From positions 1 to 64,000 of the IMG/VR virus record IMGVR_UViG_3300032334_001259: DNA of 64,000 bases. One strand, written 5' to 3'. The position numbers and the translations under genes are program-made. Source of the stretch: a virus. Position 1 is the stretch's first letter. Each line of letters begins with the position of its first letter. The notes beneath the pieces were generated by a model, which had not been told where the DNA came from, did not search any database, and saw only the letters and a program-made list of their open reading frames with translations. Positions 1 through 49,244 of the stretch are shown here, in pieces.

Positions 1-365
1 GGGTCATGCATATAAGCATCATATAAAATATGACTTGCTAAAAGATATAATTCCATATATTTTTCACTTGTAATTTTTTCATATGGATAACATATAAATG
101 TAAACTGACAGTCTTCTTTGCTACGTTGATTTACAACTTTACAAGCAGTTTGTGGAAATTTATGGCTTTCTATACGATTACGTATAACCCAACCAACTGC
201 AACTTGTCCTTCATAACCTTCACCATATGCTTCATAAAACAGCGCCTGCACTACGCACTCTGTTGGTGATTCCTGATAAACTTTTGGTTTTGGGAGTGGA
301 TCTTTAGAAAACGCAGGATAACTCACTACGATGAAGGCTACCAAAGATATAAAAAGCCGTTTCAT
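1..365 (-). CDS. SleB/CwlJ-type cell-wall hydrolase, secreted (3' end outside window)
   Basis: Partial gene of 121 codons, open to the window edge. The start MKRLFISLVAFIVVSYPAFS is a clear signal peptide (two basic residues, hydrophobic core, small residues before a cleavage site). It is followed by ALFYEAYGEGYEGQVAVGWV, IRNRI, a Phe-Pro pair and spaced cysteines, the pattern of Hydrolase_2 (SleB/CwlJ) cell-wall hydrolases; the glutamate in the YEAYGE segment is the likely catalytic acid. It would cut peptidoglycan after export, fitting a role in lysis. The ATG at 365 has a GAGG ribosome site just upstream. It lies immediately downstream of the tmRNA and may share its late promoter. The C-terminus is not visible. 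Confidence 0.75.
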   Translation of the reverse strand, partial: MKRLFISLVAFIVVSYPAFSKDPLPKPKVYQESPTECVVQALFYEAYGEGYEGQVAVGWVIRNRIESHKFPQTACKVVNQRSKEDCQFTFICYPYEKITSEKYMELYLLASHILYDAYMHD

Positions 366-375
366 TACCTCATAA

Positions 376-668
376 AAGTTGCAACTTTTCTGTTTCTAGG
401 TAAGTTGCCAACCCAAGAAATTATGCCGCTAGGCGCATTTCAACAGGTGCATTATCGTTTGCATCTATAACGTTTGTCAAAGTCTCTTCAAAGTCTTTAC
501 TGCACTTGTCGATCCTATTTCAGGCCCATAAAAGATACATCGGAAGGTAGACAGGGAAACTATTACACAAGTTCATCCGTGACTTGAAACCAATGTATCT
601 ATGGTGGACCTGGACGGTACCGCCCCGTCGTCCAACATGCTTATTTTACTCTGCGTCAACAACCGTGA
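376..668 (-). ncRNA. ssrA: Permuted two-piece tmRNA (ssrA) precursor
   Basis: On the minus strand the acceptor piece comes first and the coding piece second, the circularly permuted order of alphaproteobacterial tmRNA. Acceptor piece: T-stem 629-625/617-613 (GACGG/CCGTC), 7-nt loop, 3' strand CAGGTCC (612-606), then A and an encoded CCA ending at 602. Coding piece: 5' end GGGCCTG (527-521), which pairs with CAGGTCC over 7 bp with the third pair G-U, the alanine identity element. It continues into AAATAGGATCGAC, matching the conserved 5' region of tmRNA. The tag frame 462-421 starts with GCA and reads ANDNAPVEMRLAA then TAA, very like alphaproteobacterial tags. About 74 nt (528-601) would be removed between the pieces. 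CAA plus GUGC in the coding piece can pair with GCAU plus UUG before the T-stem, a P2-like helix. A 7-bp hairpin (381-387/402-408) closes the 3' region. The outer ends are approximate. The T-loop (GGCGGTA) is unusual. Confidence 0.88.
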
Positions 669-674
669 CAAGAA

Positions 675-682
675 TATTTATA
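675..682 (-). promoter_or_regulatory. T4-type late promoter box for the tmRNA
   Basis: Reads TATAAATA on the minus strand, identical to the T4 late promoter consensus. It begins 3 nt after the zinc-ribbon gene's stop codon and would start transcription near 668, just upstream of the tmRNA acceptor piece. It probably also serves the cell-wall hydrolase downstream. Confidence 0.7.
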
Positions 683-685
683 GCA

Positions 686-841
686 TCACTTATTGTTATT
701 GTCAAGTTTAATTTCTTGTTGCTTACCACAATGTGGACAATACAGTTTTTTAGGCTCCCAATCGTCCATTACGGCGATACTAAACCACATTTTGCAAAAT
801 TCACAGGTAAAATGCCAAATTTTTTCTACGTTGGTTTGCAT
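686..841 (-). CDS. Small zinc-ribbon protein (51 aa)
   Basis: A 51-codon gene that starts at ATG 841, sharing one base with the stop codon of the upstream SGNH gene (TAATG), so translation is probably coupled. The protein has two cysteine pairs, TCEFC at residues 12-16 and CPHC at 35-38, about 18 residues apart, as in a zinc ribbon, and a tryptophan-rich start. It is acidic and lysine-rich with no membrane segment. The function is unknown; candidates are a DNA- or RNA-binding regulator or a partner of host polymerase. It is the last gene before the late promoter of the tmRNA. Confidence 0.7.
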   Translation of the reverse strand: MQTNVEKIWHFTCEFCKMWFSIAVMDDWEPKKLYCPHCGKQQEIKLDNNNK

Positions 842-23565: not shown

Positions 23566-23639
23566 TGTTTTTTATTTAAGATATTTTTTAAATGATAAAT
23601 TATTATATTATTGGCACATTTAGGCATAAAGGGCAATCA

Positions 23640-25340
23640 ATGAAACTACCAGAAAACGCACAGGCACAATGCGAACAATTACTAAAACAATTTAGACGAC
23701 AAATACCAGATGATGCGGCGTATAGTGACCGACTTGTTGAAGAAATAGAAATCATACTGGGTCTACGCTTTACAGAATACTTCTTACAAATCCGTGAAAT
23801 ATTAGATATGACTAATGACTTACCACACATGACACGTGGTAGTGCAGGCAGTAGTCTTGTTTGTTGGGCATTAGGTATTACAGATGTTGATCCTATAAAA
23901 TGGGATATACCACTTTCACGATTTTTAAATCCGCACCGTGATGATTTACCAGACATTGATATAGACTATCCACATTGGGCACAAACTACAGTTATGGAAC
24001 GTATATTCAAACGTTGGCCTGGTAAAAGTGCAAGAATTAGTAACTATGTTACATTTAAAGAAAAAAGTGCCAAGCGTGAAGCAGCAAGACGACTTGGTGC
24101 AAAAGGAAAATTACCTCGTAACTTCAAATACGATGATCTTGACATTGACATAGGGGAAGCTATTCGTATTGAAAAGAAGTTGCTTGGTAAGAAACGAGCC
24201 ATCAGCAAACACTGTGGTGGCATACTTGTGTTCAAGCATAATCTACCTAAAAGTCTTATAAATGCTGATAATCAAATACTATTAGACAAACATGAAGTAG
24301 AAGACCTTGAACACTTAAAAGTTGATATACTTGCTAATCGTGGATTAAGTCAACTTTATGAAATAGAACCAAATATGGGTTTAGAAGATTATCCTGATTA
24401 TGATGAAGCAACTGTAAAACTTCTTTGTAATGGTGATGTGCTAGGCGTAACACAAGGTGAATCACCAGCAATGCGGCGATTGTTTCGTGCAATACAGCCA
24501 AAGTCACGTAGTGATTGCGTATTTGCTACTGCGCTTATACGTCCTGTTGCAACTACTGGTCGCCAAAAAGCCAGTTTCTTTCACGATTGGACAGAACAGC
24601 GTTTAGAAGAAAGTATTGTTTATGAAGATGATGCTATCAAAAAGATAAGCAAACTTATTGGTTGTGATATCTATGAAGCAGATATGTATCGCCGTGCATT
24701 TGCAAAAAAGAATGAAGAAAAAGTGTATGAGTTTATGCACCGTATGGGAACACACCCAAACAAGACAGAAATTGTAGATGAACTTTATCAACTTGGAAAC
24801 TTTGGACTATGCCGTGCACATGCTGTAAATCTTGGGCGATTGATTTGGGCATTAGCATATCAAAAAGCACATAACCCAAAACCATTTTGGGCAGCATATC
24901 TTAAACACTGTGAAGGCAGTTATCGTCGTTGGGTCTATAAATGTGAAGCCAAACGTGCTGGTTGGGATTTACGTGATCTAGGTTATAATTATAGTTTGTT
25001 AAATGACCCTATATATGAATATAGAAAATATGGATGGTGGGGTGATGCCGATTTTTTACAAGGTTTTTATTGTGCTAATCAATATCTTGACCGTTTTGAA
25101 TTTGCTGGTCTTGTTGCCAATGGTCGTGTATTTAAGGGAGAAGGCGGGAAATACATTACCTTTCTTACACTCGGAATTGACAACGGAAAATATATTGACT
25201 TATTGGTCAAGGGACCAGTAGCATATCATGATTATGATGTTGTATGCGGCGTAGGTAAAGTTAAAACAAGTAATGGCAGTCAGTATATTGAATGTCAAAA
25301 TGTGCGGACATTTAAGCTAGAAAAATTTATTTCTGCTTAA
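23640..25340 (+). CDS. C-family (DnaE-like) DNA polymerase core without PHP domain
   Basis: 566 residues from ATG 23640, with GGGC upstream; an in-frame ATG at 23592 adds 16 unlikely residues. It aligns with the PolIII-alpha core: RLVEEIEIILGLRFTEYFL, TRGSAGSSLVCWALGITDVD, RFLNPHRDDLPDIDIDYP (catalytic D105 and D107), LKVDIL (third Asp, D229), a finger segment LGVTQGESPAMRRLFRAIQP, and GLCRAHAVNLGRLIWALAYQ as the Ser/His-rich finger helix. Residues 487-560 look like the OB fold. The PHP domain (first ~280 residues of bacterial DnaE) and a clamp-binding tail are missing. It is a lone plus-strand gene between minus-strand replication genes. It may be a polymerase, or a repurposed one. Confidence 0.82.
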   Translation: MKLPENAQAQCEQLLKQFRRQIPDDAAYSDRLVEEIEIILGLRFTEYFLQIREILDMTNDLPHMTRGSAGSSLVCWALGITDVDPIKWDIPLSRFLNPHRDDLPDIDIDYPHWAQTTVMERIFKRWPGKSARISNYVTFKEKSAKREAARRLGAKGKLPRNFKYDDLDIDIGEAIRIEKKLLGKKRAISKHCGGILVFKHNLPKSLINADNQILLDKHEVEDLEHLKVDILANRGLSQLYEIEPNMGLEDYPDYDEATVKLLCNGDVLGVTQGESPAMRRLFRAIQPKSRSDCVFATALIRPVATTGRQKASFFHDWTEQRLEESIVYEDDAIKKISKLIGCDIYEADMYRRAFAKKNEEKVYEFMHRMGTHPNKTEIVDELYQLGNFGLCRAHAVNLGRLIWALAYQKAHNPKPFWAAYLKHCEGSYRRWVYKCEAKRAGWDLRDLGYNYSLLNDPIYEYRKYGWWGDADFLQGFYCANQYLDRFEFAGLVANGRVFKGEGGKYITFLTLGIDNGKYIDLLVKGPVAYHDYDVVCGVGKVKTSNGSQYIECQNVRTFKLEKFISA

Positions 25341-41609: not shown

Positions 41610-42341
41610 TCATAATGATAAGAAACTTTGTGAACGGTCTATCCATTCTAATACTAAATCTTTTTCGTCAAAATTATCAATACCATTTAGTTTAGCATCT
41701 AAACAATAGGGAAGTCTATTTGTTTCTTTTAATTCATATAAACTATTATACATACGTGGTTCATCATCTGTTTTATATACAGCAGCACGTAACCAACCAT
41801 TTTGTTTATCCAATTGAAAATGTGCATCACGACAATCAAAACCAGCACTTGCTAATTGAACAATAAGACTGCTCATAGTGTAAACATGATACATACCGCT
41901 TGTCATATTAACATTAATTGTATTGTGTTGAATATGTTCACTTATGGAAAGTGAATATGGAATTTCAACTATTAATAATCCATCTTTTCGTAACAATTTA
42001 TGCCAATGAAATAGTGTTCCAACTGGGTCCATTGCATGATGTAATACATTGTGACACCATATAAGGTCTTGTGGTGATAGTTCAACTGTTGCAAAATCTT
42101 CAAATATCCATTTCATACCTTGTACTGTTTGTAAGTTGTATGGTGGTGCTATTTCCACAGCAGTTACATTAAAATTATACTTGCGTCCTTCTGGACTTGT
42201 TAGTGATGCCCACCATACAGCATCATAACCCATACCAGCACCCATTACACAAATATTATCTAATCCCATAAGATAATCTTCTAAAATAGACAAATAATTT
42301 AATGTTACAAGACTATGGGCATGGCTTTCTTGAGGTGTCAT
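41610..42341 (-). CDS. SAM-dependent methyltransferase-like protein
   Basis: 243 residues. ICVMGAGMGYDAVWW is the motif I Gly-rich loop, VTAVEIAPPYN the acidic strand, DLIWCHNVLHHAMDPVGTL motif post-I/II and KDGLLIVEIPYS motif III of class I SAM methyltransferases. It probably methylates a sugar or lipid intermediate of the adjacent glycan island. It is the last gene of that island on this strand and is divergent from the epimerase gene at 42394. Confidence 0.7.
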   Translation of the reverse strand: MTPQESHAHSLVTLNYLSILEDYLMGLDNICVMGAGMGYDAVWWASLTSPEGRKYNFNVTAVEIAPPYNLQTVQGMKWIFEDFATVELSPQDLIWCHNVLHHAMDPVGTLFHWHKLLRKDGLLIVEIPYSLSISEHIQHNTINVNMTSGMYHVYTMSSLIVQLASAGFDCRDAHFQLDKQNGWLRAAVYKTDDEPRMYNSLYELKETNRLPYCLDAKLNGIDNFDEKDLVLEWIDRSQSFLSL

Positions 42342-42393
42342 AAGGTGTCCGTTAAATATTGCTATAGATTATATAGTAGGATATTATTCGGTT

Positions 42394-43191
42394 ATGAAAA
42401 TTTTAATCACAGGAAGCAACGGGTTTATTGGCAGTTATTTGTGCAAATATTATACCGAATATGGTCATCAAGTTATACAATTACATCGTGGTGTTTGTGA
42501 TTTAGAAGATGCTGAAAGTGTTAAAAATTTCTTTACTGCAAATCCATGTAACGCAGTAATTCATACTGCATTATGGGGTCGTGAATTAGTTCGCAGTGAT
42601 AATCCAGAAGTATATGAACGAAACTGGAAAATTTGGCAAAATCTATTAAGTAATCGTGATAAGTTTCAACAATTTATTAATCTTGGAACTGGCTTGGAGT
42701 ATGATAGTGGACGAGACATCAAATATGCTGATGAAGATGATGCCTTATATGTGGAGCCTACTGCTCCTTATGATCGTGTTAAAAACGATATATCTCGTGC
42801 TATTCATAATCTACCATCTTTTTATACACTTCTTTTATTCGGAGTAGCACATTATACAGAAGGTAATCGTTTCTTTAATCGTTTGCTGAATGAACCAACA
42901 TTTACAATCAATGAAGATCGTGAATATGATTATTTTAATTTAGAAGATTTACCAACCGTAATAGATTTAATTTTAGATAATAAAATGCAACATAAAGCAA
43001 TAAACTGTGTTTATGAGCAGAAATATAAATTAAGTCAACTTGCAAAATTATTCTGTGATATTAAAATGCTTGATTATAAAAAAGTGCAAGTATTAGACAC
43101 TAGTAATAAAAATTATACTGGAAGCAATGACAGATTAAAAAGTTATAATCTGCCACTACTTGGTTTAGAATTAGCCATGCTTCGGTTTTAA
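42394..43191 (+). CDS. NAD-dependent sugar epimerase/dehydratase (RmlD-like)
   Basis: 265 residues. ILITGSNGFIGSYLCKYY is the Gly-rich NAD-binding loop, NLGTGLEYDSG the serine/threonine strand region, and YDRVKNDISR carries the Y-x-x-x-K catalytic pair. It is short for the family (usually 300-340). It acts on a nucleotide-sugar in the glycan island. It is a lone plus-strand gene, convergent with the 43171 gene (21-nt overlap). Confidence 0.72.
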   Translation: MKILITGSNGFIGSYLCKYYTEYGHQVIQLHRGVCDLEDAESVKNFFTANPCNAVIHTALWGRELVRSDNPEVYERNWKIWQNLLSNRDKFQQFINLGTGLEYDSGRDIKYADEDDALYVEPTAPYDRVKNDISRAIHNLPSFYTLLLFGVAHYTEGNRFFNRLLNEPTFTINEDREYDYFNLEDLPTVIDLILDNKMQHKAINCVYEQKYKLSQLAKLFCDIKMLDYKKVQVLDTSNKNYTGSNDRLKSYNLPLLGLELAMLRF

Positions 43192-44178
43192 TTTACCGTT
43201 TTCATCAAACAAGATTTCAGCAAAACGTTTCTTGCATGATTCACCATTCCATGCTTGTTGCATTTTAGCAACCTGTTCAACACCAATTTCAATTGCTTGC
43301 TTAAAACTTGTTTGTGGATATTGTGGAATATACTGTTGAATGTGACGGAAAGCATGGTCACCACTGCATAACATTGGTCTACCAACCATAAGTGCTTGGT
43401 CAGTTGCACTACTGATACCAGTTGTATTACGAGCATAGAAAAATACGTTAAGTGTATTCTGTGACAACCATTCTAATAATTCTTGATCACTAAAATAATT
43501 TTCAGTAAGTTGTATTTCAATGCCAGGTTTTGCAATAGGTAAACACTGTGTAGCAACTTCCATACGAGCATAACCGCCAACATCACCATAGTAACTACCA
43601 GGTGCATAGTTCATACGAATGATTGCACGATCAAATTCTTCATTAACTGCACGAACAAGATTACCCAGATTTCTACCGTGACCAGCTAAACCATAAGTTC
43701 CAATAACTGGTATTTCTTTTTCTACATATGGCTGAACTTTTGCTGTGCCAAGTGGACGTGGGAAAGCATAGAAACGCTTGTCATGAAAATCAGCGGTTGG
43801 GTCTACCCAAAAATAAGCATCAAAATCATCAATGTTTACACCTTCTAAACCAGCATATGGATTGTTTGGAAATCCTTCAAAATGAAAGCAGAACTTCATA
43901 CCTGGCAAGTTCTTACAAATCATTTCACTACGCACACCGCTTTGGTCACGCATAGTGGAAATATGATAGTTAAAGAAATATGCATCATATGGTTCTTTCT
44001 CTTTACCACGATGAATAACTTTGCCATTATTAAGTGCGGATATATCTAAATCATTTGTTTCAAAATAATCCATAGTATAATTTGCACCGTCTTTAAGAAC
44101 ATTATGCAACATTCTACCAATAGTGCTCATACTACAAGCACCACGATCTTTGTTTATAAGTGCAAATTTATAGGTCAT
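43171..44178 (-). CDS. GT-B-type glycosyltransferase 1
   Basis: 335 residues, one of three related proteins (43171, 44175, 46118). Shared order: an N-terminal half ending in a P-V-I-G turn (EIPVIGTYGLAGHGRNLGNL), then a basic ExxRAIIRMNYAP strand, NYFSDQELLEWLSQNTLNV and FYARNTTGISSATDQALMVG. This last matches the donor-binding E-x(7)-E region of GT4-like folds with a D-Q-A motif in place of the usual E. I infer a retaining glycosyltransferase. It is coupled to the next gene by a 4-nt overlap. Confidence 0.6.
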   Translation of the reverse strand: MTYKFALINKDRGACSMSTIGRMLHNVLKDGANYTMDYFETNDLDISALNNGKVIHRGKEKEPYDAYFFNYHISTMRDQSGVRSEMICKNLPGMKFCFHFEGFPNNPYAGLEGVNIDDFDAYFWVDPTADFHDKRFYAFPRPLGTAKVQPYVEKEIPVIGTYGLAGHGRNLGNLVRAVNEEFDRAIIRMNYAPGSYYGDVGGYARMEVATQCLPIAKPGIEIQLTENYFSDQELLEWLSQNTLNVFFYARNTTGISSATDQALMVGRPMLCSGDHAFRHIQQYIPQYPQTSFKQAIEIGVEQVAKMQQAWNGESCKKRFAEILFDENGKLKPKHG

Positions 44179-45155
44179 AACCCAATCCTTTTGAATATTT
44201 TAGTAAAGTCTTCATGTATCTGTTCTGGTGTAAATCTTTTGTAAACTGGTTCCCATGATTTAGTTCCGTTTGCTATAATTTGTTTCAATGATGAATTTTC
44301 AACAATAATAGTTGGTTCTAAATTCCAATAACTCTTAAACTGATGGCTTTTAGTAATTGCAATAGGGCGACGAGCAGCAATGGCATAATCAATACTACCA
44401 CTCATGCCAGCACCATCAAGATAATCATAGAAGTAACAATTGACTGTATTTTGTGCAAGCCAATTTACAATACCTTGCTCATCTAACCAATCATTGCTTA
44501 CTTCTACTTTAATACCAGGTTTGGTGATAATAGAATTTACTTGTGCAAGAATTTGTGGACCATATGTATTTTTTGGTTGTGTAAAGAAACCATCTGGCAT
44601 GTGCAGTCGTATAATAGCTTCATCGAATTCATGTTGAACTTGTGCTGCTATTCTATGAACGCCCTTCCATGGTGCTGGAAATCCTTGCCACCCAATTACA
44701 GGAATACCTTGTTCAACATATTCTACTGTTGGTGTTTTTGCAGGTAAATGATTTACAACAAATACACCTTCATTATGTGGAACGCTTTCATCGTATGTCA
44801 TCATATATTGCCATATAGGATGCGTATATGGATTCCATTGTTCAGCAAATTGTTTGGCTTGATCATAAACAATACAAATACACTTAATATCTGGATATAA
44901 TCCACGTAGACTCATTTTTTCAATCCACGGATTTACACCTTTATGAAAATTAAAAATAACTAAATTTGGTTTGTAATCTAATATCTTTTTGCTACACTCA
45001 TCAATACTGTCAGTATAAATTGTCTCAATTTTATAAAGTGGATGTGTATCTAAAATATTTGCTAATAGCGAACCAGTTAAACTAACACCACATCTACCAC
45101 GATCATTTTCATCAGTAATTGGTGTAGTAACATATAATATCTTTGCGTTATTCAT
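44175..45155 (-). CDS. GT-B-type glycosyltransferase 2
   Basis: 326 residues, paralogous to the genes at 43171 and 46118: EQGIPVIGWQGFPAPWKGVH, FDEAIIRLHMPDGFF, SNDWLDEQGIVNWLAQNTVN and DGAGMSGSIDYAIAARRPIA. The N-terminal half (ILYVTTPITDENDRGRCGVS) has the GT-B Rossmann outline. Probably adds a sugar to the same surface structure as its paralogs. It overlaps the GDP-mannose epimerase-like gene by 8 nt. Confidence 0.6.
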   Translation of the reverse strand: MNNAKILYVTTPITDENDRGRCGVSLTGSLLANILDTHPLYKIETIYTDSIDECSKKILDYKPNLVIFNFHKGVNPWIEKMSLRGLYPDIKCICIVYDQAKQFAEQWNPYTHPIWQYMMTYDESVPHNEGVFVVNHLPAKTPTVEYVEQGIPVIGWQGFPAPWKGVHRIAAQVQHEFDEAIIRLHMPDGFFTQPKNTYGPQILAQVNSIITKPGIKVEVSNDWLDEQGIVNWLAQNTVNCYFYDYLDGAGMSGSIDYAIAARRPIAITKSHQFKSYWNLEPTIIVENSSLKQIIANGTKSWEPVYKRFTPEQIHEDFTKIFKRIGL

Positions 45156-46116
45156 TTGCTTTTTTTACCTGTTCTGCAATCCAGTGATATGTTTTGCTTA
45201 AGCCACCGTATAAATCTTGGGTAGGAACCCAACCAAGTTTTTCACGAATTAAATCATTATTGCTATTACGACCACGAACACCCTGTGGTCCTTCAATATG
45301 TTTAATTGTTATTGTTTTATCAGCAATACCACTTACGGTTAATACAAGATCGTTGATACTAATAAGATAATCACTACCAATGTTGATTGGACCTTCAAAG
45401 TCACTATCCATTAAACGCATAATGCCTTCTACACAATCATCAATATGTAGAAAACTACGAGTTTGTTTACCATCACCCCATACTTCAATCTCGCCGCCTT
45501 CTTCTGCCTCTGCAATTTTGCGGCAAATAGCAGCTGGTGCTTTCTCTTTGCCACCTTGCCAAGTGCCGTATTCACCAAATATATTATGAAAACGTGCTAT
45601 ACGATTACGCATACCATGTTGACGATTGTAGGCAAGATAAAGACGTTCACTAAACAATTTTTCCCAACCATATTCGCTATCTGGATGAGCAGGATAAGCA
45701 GTATGTTCACGGCAATCTGGATTTTCTGGGTCTAATTGGTTAAATTCGTTGTAAATACAAGCACTACTACTAAAAAATACTTGTTCTACGCCATGACGAT
45801 GTGCGGCTTCAACAACATTTAGATTAATTTTAGCACTGTTAGTCATAACTTCTGCATCATTAATACCAGCATTGATATAACCAGCACCACCCATGTCAGC
45901 AGCAAGCTGAAATACACGGTCAACTTTACGACCAATGATAAAATTAACGACGTTTGGATTGCGACAATCACTGATGTAGAACTCATCACATGCACTTGAT
46001 GCAAATTCTGGTTGTTTTAAATCAACACCACGAACCCAATATCCATCAGTCTTTAAACGTTTGGCAACATGACTACCAATAAATCCACCTGCACCTACTA
46101 CAACTGCCGTTTTCAT
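45148..46116 (-). CDS. GDP-mannose 3,5-epimerase-like enzyme
   Basis: 322 residues from ATG 46116, which has GAGG upstream and follows the previous stop; an in-frame ATG at 46134 would overlap that gene. VVVGAGGFIGSHVAKRL is the NAD loop. SSSACIYNE, YGWEKLFSERL (Y-x-x-x-K), NIFGEYGTWQGGKEKAPAAI and IEGPQGVRGRNSNNDLIREK are very close to GDP-mannose 3,5-epimerases. It would convert GDP-mannose to GDP-L-galactose or GDP-gulose, or act on a related GDP-sugar made by the dehydratase at 49666. Confidence 0.82.
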   Translation of the reverse strand: MKTAVVVGAGGFIGSHVAKRLKTDGYWVRGVDLKQPEFASSACDEFYISDCRNPNVVNFIIGRKVDRVFQLAADMGGAGYINAGINDAEVMTNSAKINLNVVEAAHRHGVEQVFFSSSACIYNEFNQLDPENPDCREHTAYPAHPDSEYGWEKLFSERLYLAYNRQHGMRNRIARFHNIFGEYGTWQGGKEKAPAAICRKIAEAEEGGEIEVWGDGKQTRSFLHIDDCVEGIMRLMDSDFEGPINIGSDYLISINDLVLTVSGIADKTITIKHIEGPQGVRGRNSNNDLIREKLGWVPTQDLYGGLSKTYHWIAEQVKKANE

Positions 46117-46117
46117 T

Positions 46118-47095
46118 TTATTCCTCACCGTCAAATATAATTTCTGTTAATCTTTGGATACAACGTTCTTTGCTCCAATCTTCTTGTAATTTTCTCACAT
46201 AATCAACACCATTCTCAATTGTTTCACGTAAACTCATTTCTGGATATGGTTTTTGGTATTGTAAAACATGACGGAATGTAGGGTTGTTACTTACAGCAAT
46301 AGGACGACCACTTGCAATTGCTTGGTCAGGTGCAGCCGCAATGCCTAAAATATGACGTTGATAGAAGAAAGCATTTACGGTATTACGACTGCACCAATCT
46401 ATAAGTTCATCGTTGCTGTAGAAATTATGTGTTATTTGTAATTCAACATTGTCACGTGCTGCGGCACGACATTGTTGAAGAACTTGATTTAATAGTGATT
46501 TGTTTTGGTCACTATATGCTGCTTGTGGAAGATTAATACGCACTATAGATTTTTCAAATTCTTCACTTGCTGCCTTGACAATAAGGTCAAATCCTTTATC
46601 TACTGTTACATAACCATAACAACCAATGACGGGAACTTCTGGGACATATTTGTAACCTGGTAGAATTTTAGGTAATACACGTGGATAATGATGAAACCGT
46701 GGATTTCCAAAATTTTTAGTTGGATCTAATACAATATAACCATTAAAACTATCTGGAACATTGTCTACAACTGGATTAGCATCATCACGTATTTCTTCAA
46801 CAACCATGCAATAATGTAAACTTGGAATTTTGTAAAACTGTGTACAGTCAATACGTTCCATTTCACGCATTGTATAAGGATGGTAATTCCATATAATTAT
46901 ATCGTATTGTGGTGGTTGTTGACCATCAATAAGTTTGATTATTCCATTATTCAAGGCATTGCGATCAAGAAAGTTTGCTTCTACATAATCCATATGCCAT
47001 TGGTCAGAGTCTTCATTGATTTCGTAAAAAGTTAAACCTTTTTCATAAATGGAACAATTTGCTTCACGTGTGTTAACGAATAAAAATCTATACAT
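46118..47095 (-). CDS. GT-B-type glycosyltransferase 3
   Basis: 325 residues, third paralog of the set: VPEVPVIGCYGYVTVDKGFD, FEKSIVRINLPQAAYS, HNFYSNDELIDWCSRNTVNA and GIAAAPDQAIASGRPIAVSN. The N-terminal half binds the acceptor side, the C-terminal half the nucleotide sugar. Three related transferases in a row suggest that each adds one residue of an oligosaccharide. Confidence 0.6.
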   Translation of the reverse strand: MYRFLFVNTREANCSIYEKGLTFYEINEDSDQWHMDYVEANFLDRNALNNGIIKLIDGQQPPQYDIIIWNYHPYTMREMERIDCTQFYKIPSLHYCMVVEEIRDDANPVVDNVPDSFNGYIVLDPTKNFGNPRFHHYPRVLPKILPGYKYVPEVPVIGCYGYVTVDKGFDLIVKAASEEFEKSIVRINLPQAAYSDQNKSLLNQVLQQCRAAARDNVELQITHNFYSNDELIDWCSRNTVNAFFYQRHILGIAAAPDQAIASGRPIAVSNNPTFRHVLQYQKPYPEMSLRETIENGVDYVRKLQEDWSKERCIQRLTEIIFDGEE

Positions 47096-47098
47096 ATT

Positions 47099-48016
47099 TT
47101 ATTTTTCTATATGGTAACCGCTTGTTTGTTTATTGTTCTTGATATCATCAATTGCACGTTCAATAATACGAACAGCAGGACTTGCAAATGTTGTATTACT
47201 AAAGCGGAAATCTGCGGCAATGTCAAGACCATATGGCAACAAATCTTCTGGCTTATGACTAAAGTTTACAAATACTTTATTCTTATCAAGCAAGTTTTGT
47301 TTAGTATTGGCATAAGTGAATGGTCCACTATTCTTACCAACTATAAGATTTACTTTTGTTGAAAGAAGAGAAATATCACAAAGATCACATGAAGTTGTAA
47401 ACAAATCACTTGTGAAAATGACATTTTGACATTTTGTTTCAAATCTTTCAGTAGCAACAATTGTATCATCTTTGTGATTGTCAGCAACATATTCAATAAT
47501 ACTTTTCATATTATCCATGCTGCTTTGCTTACTTGCTACTTCACTGTTACAGAAAAGATAAACATTTCCTACCAATTCTTTTTGCATTTGTGCAGTAGGT
47601 TCATGATAATGACTATAATTAATTTCTGGAACATAATCCCAAACATCTTCACTTAATTGCAAATCAATGCCAAAGTTTTGACGAATATTGCCATACATTT
47701 CACGGTAAATGCGATGGTGACTAATATAACTTGGGTGAGTGTTTGGCCAAAGACCCATGTAACTACCTACCCAAGTGTTGATTAGTATAGTATCATCATC
47801 ATTTGCAAATCGTTTCCACTGGTCAACACTTGTTAGCACACTTTCGCAATCTTCACTATCAAGTGTTTCTACAAGATCAATAATTGCACGTGGGTTTTTG
47901 CGGTGTGCATAATGAAATGTATAATCTGGTAGTTGGCGTTTAATGTCAGCGACCACTCCTCGTGTAGAGAAGAGGTCGCCATAATGCCAGTGATTATAGA
48001 ATATAATATTACCCAT
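47099..48016 (-). CDS. Glycosyltransferase family 9-like protein
   Basis: 305 residues from ATG 48016 with GGATAAT upstream; an in-frame TTG at 48028 lies within the previous gene. IIFYNHWHYGDLFSTRGVVA, NVYLFCNSEVASKQSSMDN and LIVGKNSGPFTYANTKQNLL resemble the heptosyltransferase (GT9) pattern of an N-terminal G-D strand and a C-terminal S-G-P/T. It probably transfers a sugar onto the glycan. It is part of the minus-strand island. Confidence 0.5.
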   Translation of the reverse strand: MGNIIFYNHWHYGDLFSTRGVVADIKRQLPDYTFHYAHRKNPRAIIDLVETLDSEDCESVLTSVDQWKRFANDDDTILINTWVGSYMGLWPNTHPSYISHHRIYREMYGNIRQNFGIDLQLSEDVWDYVPEINYSHYHEPTAQMQKELVGNVYLFCNSEVASKQSSMDNMKSIIEYVADNHKDDTIVATERFETKCQNVIFTSDLFTTSCDLCDISLLSTKVNLIVGKNSGPFTYANTKQNLLDKNKVFVNFSHKPEDLLPYGLDIAADFRFSNTTFASPAVRIIERAIDDIKNNKQTSGYHIEK

Positions 48017-48020
48017 GTTA

Positions 48021-49244
48021 TTATCCAATAACTTGGAATGTTGGGCAAGGAACTACTAACTTACCGCCCTTGGCGATAAAGTCCTGTTCACGCTTGACGA
48101 ACTCATCAATAAAGTGCCAAGGAAGAACAAGCAAGTAATCTGGATTTGCTGCTCTCATTTCTTCTTCACTGCAAATTGGAATATTAGTTCCAACTGTTAA
48201 CAAACCAAACTTATATGGACTACGTTCAGCAATAGCAGTTACAAGGTCAGGGGTGATACCAAACAATTGCAACAGTGTGTTACCCTTTGTTGATGCACCA
48301 TAACCATAAACCTTCTTACCTTCTGCCTTTGCTTGATGTAAGAAATCAAGAACTTGCTTTTTAAGTGACCAGATATTTTCACCAAATTCTTTCCAAAGGT
48401 CTTCATCAGTGATATTCCACCAAGCATTTTCATATTGTATGGTAGCGGCAATACGCATTTCACAAACGTCACGAATCTGGCGTGTAGCAAATGTCTTTTC
48501 ATCAGCAGTATCTTTTTGGAATGTTACACGGAATGAACCACCGTTAGCGTCATTAAGTGTGCAATCACGAAGAACGAATCCTTCACTTTCAAACAACTTC
48601 TTGATGCTGTTCAAATCGTAATAATACACGTGTTCATGGCAAATGTTATCAAATGCCAACTGCTTCAACATAAGTGGTGTATAACTCATTTGTAGAACAA
48701 ATACACCATCATCTGTGAGAATATCATGTGCATCACGAATAAATGGACGTGGGTTATCAAGGTCATAGAACATTGCAATGCAAGTAATAACCTTTGCCTT
48801 TGCATCTGGTCCAAGACCAAGGCGGTTCCAAGCATCCTTTGTAAAGAAGTCTTGAATTACTTTTGCATGTTTGGTGCTTTCTGCCAAGAAACTATCATCA
48901 GCAGGATCAATACCAACCTTTGTCATGTAATCAGGAACTTGACGAAGCAATGTGCCATCATTACATGCAATATCAAGCCAGATATCACCACTTTGTGTCT
49001 TGGTGCGGCTTGTAATTTCTGCAACAACATCACCAAGAAGTTTAGTCATGGTTGCATTGGTTCCACTGCGATACCAATATTGTCCATACATCTTGTCCAA
49101 TGGTGCAACACCATCAAGACGGACTGCACCAATAGTTTGGTCAAGATAAAGATCAAGCGACCAAGGTTTTGTTTCACGCATTTCTGCGCCTGGCTTCATA
49201 AAATCACTTACGTAGTGATCACCTAATTCTAAAATCTTTTTCAT
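48021..49244 (-). CDS. Sugar C-methyltransferase (NovU/TylC3-like)
   Basis: 407 residues, the typical size. IWLDIACNDGTLLRQVPDYM is the SAM loop, CHEHVYYYDLNSIKKLFESE the conserved H-E-H-x-x-Y-Y catalytic segment, DANGGSFRVTFQ and GYGASTKGNTLLQLFGITP the C-terminal Methyltransf_14 region. The N-terminus is short and lacks a clear zinc-binding cysteine cluster. It adds a C-methyl to a keto-deoxy sugar nucleotide; with the GDP-mannose dehydratase next door this would make a branched deoxy sugar. Confidence 0.75.
   Translation of the reverse strand: MKKILELGDHYVSDFMKPGAEMRETKPWSLDLYLDQTIGAVRLDGVAPLDKMYGQYWYRSGTNATMTKLLGDVVAEITSRTKTQSGDIWLDIACNDGTLLRQVPDYMTKVGIDPADDSFLAESTKHAKVIQDFFTKDAWNRLGLGPDAKAKVITCIAMFYDLDNPRPFIRDAHDILTDDGVFVLQMSYTPLMLKQLAFDNICHEHVYYYDLNSIKKLFESEGFVLRDCTLNDANGGSFRVTFQKDTADEKTFATRQIRDVCEMRIAATIQYENAWWNITDEDLWKEFGENIWSLKKQVLDFLHQAKAEGKKVYGYGASTKGNTLLQLFGITPDLVTAIAERSPYKFGLLTVGTNIPICSEEEMRAANPDYLLVLPWHFIDEFVKREQDFIAKGGKLVVPCPTFQVIG

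Follow-up and report, generated by a model that had tools for sequence, protein, structure and literature searches.

What kind of tmRNA does a large phage encode, when in infection would it be made, and what would it do for the phage? These questions are raised by one end of the window, which is the whole stretch of 64,000 nucleotides analysed here (positions 1 to 64,000 of IMG/VR virus record IMGVR_UViG_3300032334_001259). Minus-strand positions 705-381 hold a circularly permuted alpha-type tmRNA gene with its promoter. The Rfam covariance model alpha_tmRNA (RF01849) matched at 709-377(-) with 108.2 bits (E 1.4e-28), far above the gathering threshold of 50, and tmRNA_permuted (RF04321) matched at 664-421(-) with 100.5 bits (E 2.2e-18; gathering threshold 47). 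ARAGORN also called a permuted tmRNA, with the tag ANDNAPVEMRLAA. The permuted order is present: an acceptor piece with CCA, a spacer and a coding piece. The acceptor stem GGGCCUG/CAGGUCC forms 7/7 pairs including G3-U70, and the tag frame begins with the alanine resume codon GCA (462-460), has a hydrophobic LAA-type end and stops at UAA (423-421). The original prediction had described a permuted two-piece alpha-type tmRNA in a phage genome, with a CCA-ended acceptor piece, a 7-bp pairing whose third pair is G-U and a GCA-started frame closed by TAA, and had proposed the RF01849 search as a check; all of this was borne out. Co-folding of the two pieces (-59.1 kcal/mol) recovered the acceptor stem, the T arm and helix 2, including its segments P2c and P2d. 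The features of the locus are as follows.

700..705 (-): TTGACA, resembling a -35 box and separated by 17 nt from the -10/late box; conserved in viral tmRNA promoters
675..682 (-): TATAAATA, T4-type late box doubling as sigma-70 -10 (TATAAA); from sequence and conservation
602..669 (-): acceptor piece, 68 nt, with the 5' strands of P2d, P2c, P2b and P2a, the T arm, the acceptor 3' strand and ACCA; from covariance model, sequence and co-fold
666..669 (-): P2d 5' strand GUCA, pairing with 479-476 and lying where the transcript is predicted to begin; from co-fold and covariation in relatives
661..664 (-): P2c 5' strand GGUU, pairing with 484-481; from covariation in relatives and co-fold
613..629 (-): T arm with alpha-type loop GGCGGUA; from covariance model and sequence
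602..612 (-): acceptor 3' strand CAGGUCC plus ACCA (ACCA at 605-602); from sequence and co-fold
528..601 (-): intervening segment, 74 nt, predicted to be excised, with a long hairpin (-21.8 kcal/mol); from folding
381..527 (-): coding piece, 147 nt when counted through the 3' pseudoknot; from covariance model and sequence
521..527 (-): acceptor 5' strand GGGCCUG (G3-U70); from sequence and co-fold
463..508 (-): helix 2 3' strands and linker to the resume codon, pseudoknot 1 absent; from model alignment and linker length
421..462 (-): tag reading frame ANDNAPVEMRLAA plus UAA; from ARAGORN and sequence
417..441 (-): helix-5-like hairpin GAAAUGC..GCAUAAUUUC around the stop codon; from reading of the sequence only
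381..414 (-): 3' H-type pseudoknot, GGGU/ACCU plus GCAACU/AGUUGC; from reading of the sequence and alignment to the RF01849 consensus
3..365 (-): downstream cell-wall hydrolase ORF (Hydrolase_2, E 3.7e-13)

The hydrolase gene starts about 16 nt past the 3' pseudoknot and probably shares the tmRNA transcript.

The window gene shares with the two-piece tmRNA of Alphaproteobacteria (RF01849; Caulobacter ssrA) the permutation, the TLD, G3-U70, the GGCGGUA T loop, the resume codon and tag type, and the 3' pseudoknot. It differs in that it lacks pseudoknot 1 (PK1) and has a shorter region after the tag, that its helix 2 stops at the 5' end of the acceptor piece, where the RF01849 model has a 5' hairpin, and that a T4-late box overlaps the -10. 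The missing PK1 is the unusual part of the gene and was overlooked in the original prediction. The PK1 columns are deleted in the alignment of the gene to the Rfam model, only 45 nt lie between GGATCGAC and the resume codon GCA, and no PK1 is found between helix 2 and that codon. PK1 is usual in bacterial tmRNA but is not needed to pass the Rfam cut-off and was not taken as defining; the gene was classed as a variant because of the deleted columns and the 45-nt linker. Previous work that compared bacterial tmRNAs showed few of them to lack PK1 (PMC1168896).

How widespread is this form? In 64 parsed alphaproteobacterial tmRNAs from cells, the distance from GGATCGAC to the resume codon was 62-75 nt, and two divergent cellular tmRNAs, read by eye, had a slightly shorter gap and retained a reduced PK1-like fold. 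A pattern scan of viral contigs found at least 119 stretches with a gap of 30-57 nt (short form), nearly all of the listed ones at 37-47 nt, and at least 120 stretches with a gap of 60-90 nt (long form). The exact pattern gave no true case of the short form among 84,980 prokaryote genomes, at a sensitivity of about 2% of alphaproteobacterial tmRNAs (9/385 alphaproteobacteria were caught). Because the exact pattern is insensitive in cells, we adopted a pair of relaxed patterns, and among 172 alphaproteobacterial genomes the long-gap pattern matched 108 (a few by chance) and the short-gap pattern one. These scans suggest that the PK1-less form is common in viruses and, at this sensitivity, not found in cells. 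The sole exact short-gap match in a genome, a Rickettsiales MAG (L260), was a normal tmRNA whose true resume codon lies further on. The lone relaxed short-gap match was due to chance; the real tmRNA of that genome is long. The short form is known from metagenomic contigs only, and the phage isolates examined have long linkers with PK1-like sequence. As to one loss of PK1 versus several, a quick tree of tmRNAs gave 5 changes, and a single clade is compatible with the data (p-AU 0.63).

In the short form, helix 2 is also extended. Across 38 non-redundant relatives of the short form, GACC..AGCA on the coding strand is base-paired to UGCU..GGUC at the very start of the acceptor piece; 148/152 cells are paired in P2c and 130/140 in P2d, and both-side changes number 10 and 6, respectively. 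This level of pairing was matched in 0/2000 shuffles, which leave kinship among the sequences in place. The equivalent in the window is GACU-UGAC against GUCA-GGUU. Since the late box in relatives lies mostly 3-5 nt from P2d, the first bases of the transcript probably form the end of helix 2, which would thus reach the 5' end of the acceptor piece. It might be asked whether PK1 has been replaced rather than lost, with the same linker in an unusual fold, as P2d lengthens helix 2 where PK1 is expected to start and a tetraloop hairpin stands at the place of PK1 in four viral sequences (L162, L231, L242 and L250). However, a mean of 14.7 nt is left of the tested linker segment in the short form, and a 4-bp Watson-Crick stem is found in 0/67 short-form segments versus 88/103 long-form ones, the long-form stems being barely above shuffled (4.35 vs 3.95). 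We consider replacement unlikely and prefer the loss of PK1.

PK1 has been proposed to aid the passage of tmRNA between the ribosomal subunits (PMC8363625). E. coli tmRNA with single-stranded RNA in place of PK1 tags efficiently, according to work cited in PMC4236655, and PK1 loss is therefore compatible with function. Could the phage RNA instead be a decoy, competing with host tmRNA for SmpB or ribosomes and so weakening trans-translation in the host? Such a role has been proposed for the RNA of mycobacteriophage DS6A, which consists of a TLD only. tmRNA is inhibited by a molecule of the DS6A type (PMC4131195, PMC11915505), and given the contacts of PK1 (PMC8363625) its loss might hinder ribosome passage. 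The PK1-replaced E. coli tmRNA speaks against a decoy, and a decoy would make the reading frame superfluous, yet tags end in AA in 108/109 short-form genes among the matches listed, the exception being a contig end, and the tags vary mostly at third positions. The last two alanine codons of 46 distinct short-form tags showed zero entropy at their first two positions, whereas their third positions had 1.52 and 1.93 bits. This codon pattern indicates that the tag is under protein-level selection, which argues against a decoy, an improbable reading in our judgement, and also against a functionless leftover. Moreover, G3-U70 is present in the window gene and in 109/109 short-form viral genes, with a 7-bp acceptor stem in 108 (among the matches listed). 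A leftover of host ssrA, for example from an integration site, would fit with ssrA being a common prophage integration site (PMC11915505, PMC4383910). It is nevertheless very improbable: the carrier is a probably complete 338-kb T4-type jumbo phage, the pairing, tag and phage late promoter are intact across about 100 contigs, and viral and cellular tmRNAs cluster apart on the tree (4 changes vs 46.9 shuffled). The preferred reading is a working phage tmRNA.

When would this tmRNA be made? TTGACA at 705-700 lies exactly 17 nt upstream of TATAAATA and was overlooked in the original prediction. TTGACA-N17-TATAAA agrees with a sigma-70 promoter (TTGACA and a TATAAT-like hexamer, 16-18 nt apart), and the box at 682-675 stands at the right distance for a T4-type late gene in a phage that has a homologue of the late sigma gp55. 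The predicted +1, at about 669, is the first base of the acceptor piece. Among the matches listed, TATAAATA is found upstream of 91/109 short-form and 80/118 long-form viral genes, and in the short form its distance to the CCA end is 72-83 nt; it was upstream of 0/59 cellular tmRNAs. TTGACA (at least 5/6 bases, at 16-18 nt) accompanies 98/141 distinct viral tmRNA boxes versus 24/271 other TATAAATA sites in the same loci (p about 2e-37, with sequences treated as unrelated). By form, these are 62/69 long-form and 36/72 short-form promoters; half of the short-form promoters have no good -35 at 16-18 nt, which counts against a composite promoter there. In the carrier phage, TATAAATA occurs at 18 sites versus about 60 predicted by a Markov model, and 14/18 sites lie 9-69 nt ahead of a same-strand ORF; because of this rarity and position, the placement is as expected of a real promoter element. 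In the isolate phage vB_EliS-L02, the late box is missing and the promoter reads TTGACA-N17-TATGAT. The simplest reading of these sequences is one overlapping promoter that serves host sigma-70 and gp55, and it seems suited to the early as well as the late stage of infection. A late promoter just upstream had been predicted; the perfect T4-late box and the gp55 homologue support it, but the overlap with a consensus sigma-70 promoter means that it is not a late promoter only. A permuted two-piece form under a late promoter had also been called unusual, which it is not, as such tmRNAs have been published for phages (PMC9004378) and most of the viral genes examined are preceded by the late box.

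The carrier record is 338,435 bases long, and its first 123 bp (window 1-123) recur at its end as a direct terminal repeat; it therefore probably represents a whole genome, either circular or circularly permuted. Its ends are bridged by a second record (L232, 90 kb), which is identical to it over the 5.8 kb compared. By its genes the carrier is a T4-superfamily jumbo phage: its terminase shows 54% identity to that of PA5oct and about 50% to that of Sinorhizobium phage Phosso, and it has homologues of gp43, gp44, gp41, UvsX and gp46/47. The gp55 homologue lies at L127:877-1725 (phrog_12791, E 1.3e-78), and gp55 was found in 9/50 related records, mostly large ones. SmpB gave no match in the carrier phage or in 20 other phage records, so host SmpB is presumably used and would have to be compatible with the phage RNA. 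The alpha type of the tmRNA makes an alphaproteobacterial host plausible. Such a host does not follow from the type, as had been thought, because Methylophilales phage Melnitz has an alpha-type tmRNA and infects a gammaproteobacterium (PMC9004378). No permuted tmRNA was found in the jumbo relatives PA5oct, GAP32 and Atu_ph07.

The tmRNAs of mycobacteriophages Bxz1 and Wildcat and of Bacillus phage G are not permuted and belong to other structural types. These one-piece tmRNAs share with the window gene that they are phage-borne (PMC4131195). Phage-borne tmRNAs were thus already known, as the original prediction had said (PMC9004378; phage entries are included in PMC11915505), and so are two-piece ones: that of Melnitz is published (PMC9004378), and a 2021 database holds 53. 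Melnitz and related marine phages share with the window gene an alpha-type two-piece tmRNA in a T4-like phage (PMC9004378), and Melnitz has the same promoter, TTGACA-N17-TATAAATA, although its tmRNA was ascribed to an early promoter (PMC9004378). The Melnitz gene differs from that of the window in its linker, which is PK1-sized and shows PK1-like pairing, and in being followed directly by a glutamine riboswitch. The alphaproteobacterial phage isolates Phosso, Cp1R7A-A1, DSS3P8, RcXuper and vB_EliS-L02 share the alpha-type permuted gene, but with a long linker and PK1-like sequence; in vB_RpoS-V10 the gene was seen by BLAST only. Phosso, a jumbo relative by terminase, has a strongly folded intervening segment of 410 nt. 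When the window gene was compared with phages by BLAST, the matches were short or due to chance, except for 25 nt in Phosso, and one short-form query (L160), possibly without its acceptor piece, gave no matches.

Taken together, it is likely that this two-piece phage tmRNA, having lost PK1, carries out trans-translation with host proteins. As sequence conservation suggests, host sigma-70 polymerase would be the first to begin transcription near 669, and the gp55 machinery of the phage would use the same promoter later on. By analogy with known two-piece tmRNAs, host RNases would excise the 74-nt segment, and the two products would be the acceptor piece (68 nt) and the coding piece (about 147 nt); according to co-fold and covariation these would join by the 7-bp acceptor stem and the long helix 2, with no PK1 before the tag frame. 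The RNA would be charged with alanine via G3-U70, bind host SmpB and enter stalled ribosomes, where ANDNAPVEMRLAA would be added as an LAA-ended degradation tag for host proteases. The phage may benefit by keeping ribosomes available at a time when mRNAs of both host and phage are cleaved and transcription in the host has been turned off. Most likely, then, the phage supplies its own tmRNA through infection to recycle stalled ribosomes. That it would mainly tag host or damaged proteins for degradation and amino acid recycling, rather than free ribosomes, was proposed for Melnitz (PMC9004378) and agrees with an LAA-ended tag conserved at protein level; but trans-translation acts on stalled ribosomes and not on chosen proteins, no targeting element was seen, and under a late promoter phage proteins are equally exposed. 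We regard this main role as unlikely and keep ribosome recycling as the preferred function. Some tagging of host proteins, also suggested in the original prediction, may occur, but nothing observed here points to it.

More broadly, we somewhat favour the view that T4-like phages carry a virus-specific PK1-less tmRNA class, in which helix 2 is coupled to the tag frame and one promoter for sigma-70 and late polymerase acts throughout infection. We found no description of a PK1-less viral class or of the composite promoter in the open-access literature, and both appear to be new. With a large natural PK1-less class in viruses and apparently not in cells, the role of PK1 becomes directly testable, and with the composite promoter, the timing of the phage's need for ribosome rescue is reduced to one time-course experiment.

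Several further observations were made. In the viral sequences L162, L242, L250 and L231, an AGUC-tetraloop-GACU hairpin apparently replaces PK1, the linker is 56-57 nt and the tag is ANENNFALAA. The permuted tmRNA is not among the annotated features of Phosso (L136), Cp1R7A-A1 (L331), vB_EliS-L02 (L365), DSS3P8 (L366) and RcXuper (L367), and in the Roseobacter phage DSS3P8 a GOLLD RNA (L366:45-478) lies just upstream of the tmRNA. ORFs nested inside tmRNA genes are frequent in the spacer between the two pieces. They include a related membrane-like protein of 77-79 aa (L177, L201, L217, L238, L239, L246, L252, L038) and a 73-aa protein (L178, L015), each found with the short form as well as the long form. 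A spacer of 514 nt encodes an HNH endonuclease (Pfam PF01844; L180, L212). Elsewhere in the window, 23592-25340 (+) encodes a protein of 582 aa that has domains of bacterial DNA polymerase III alpha, beside the T4-type gp43 homologue in the same phage, and 41610-49244 holds a cluster of methyltransferase, NAD-epimerase and C-methyltransferase genes, which suggests sugar or surface modification.
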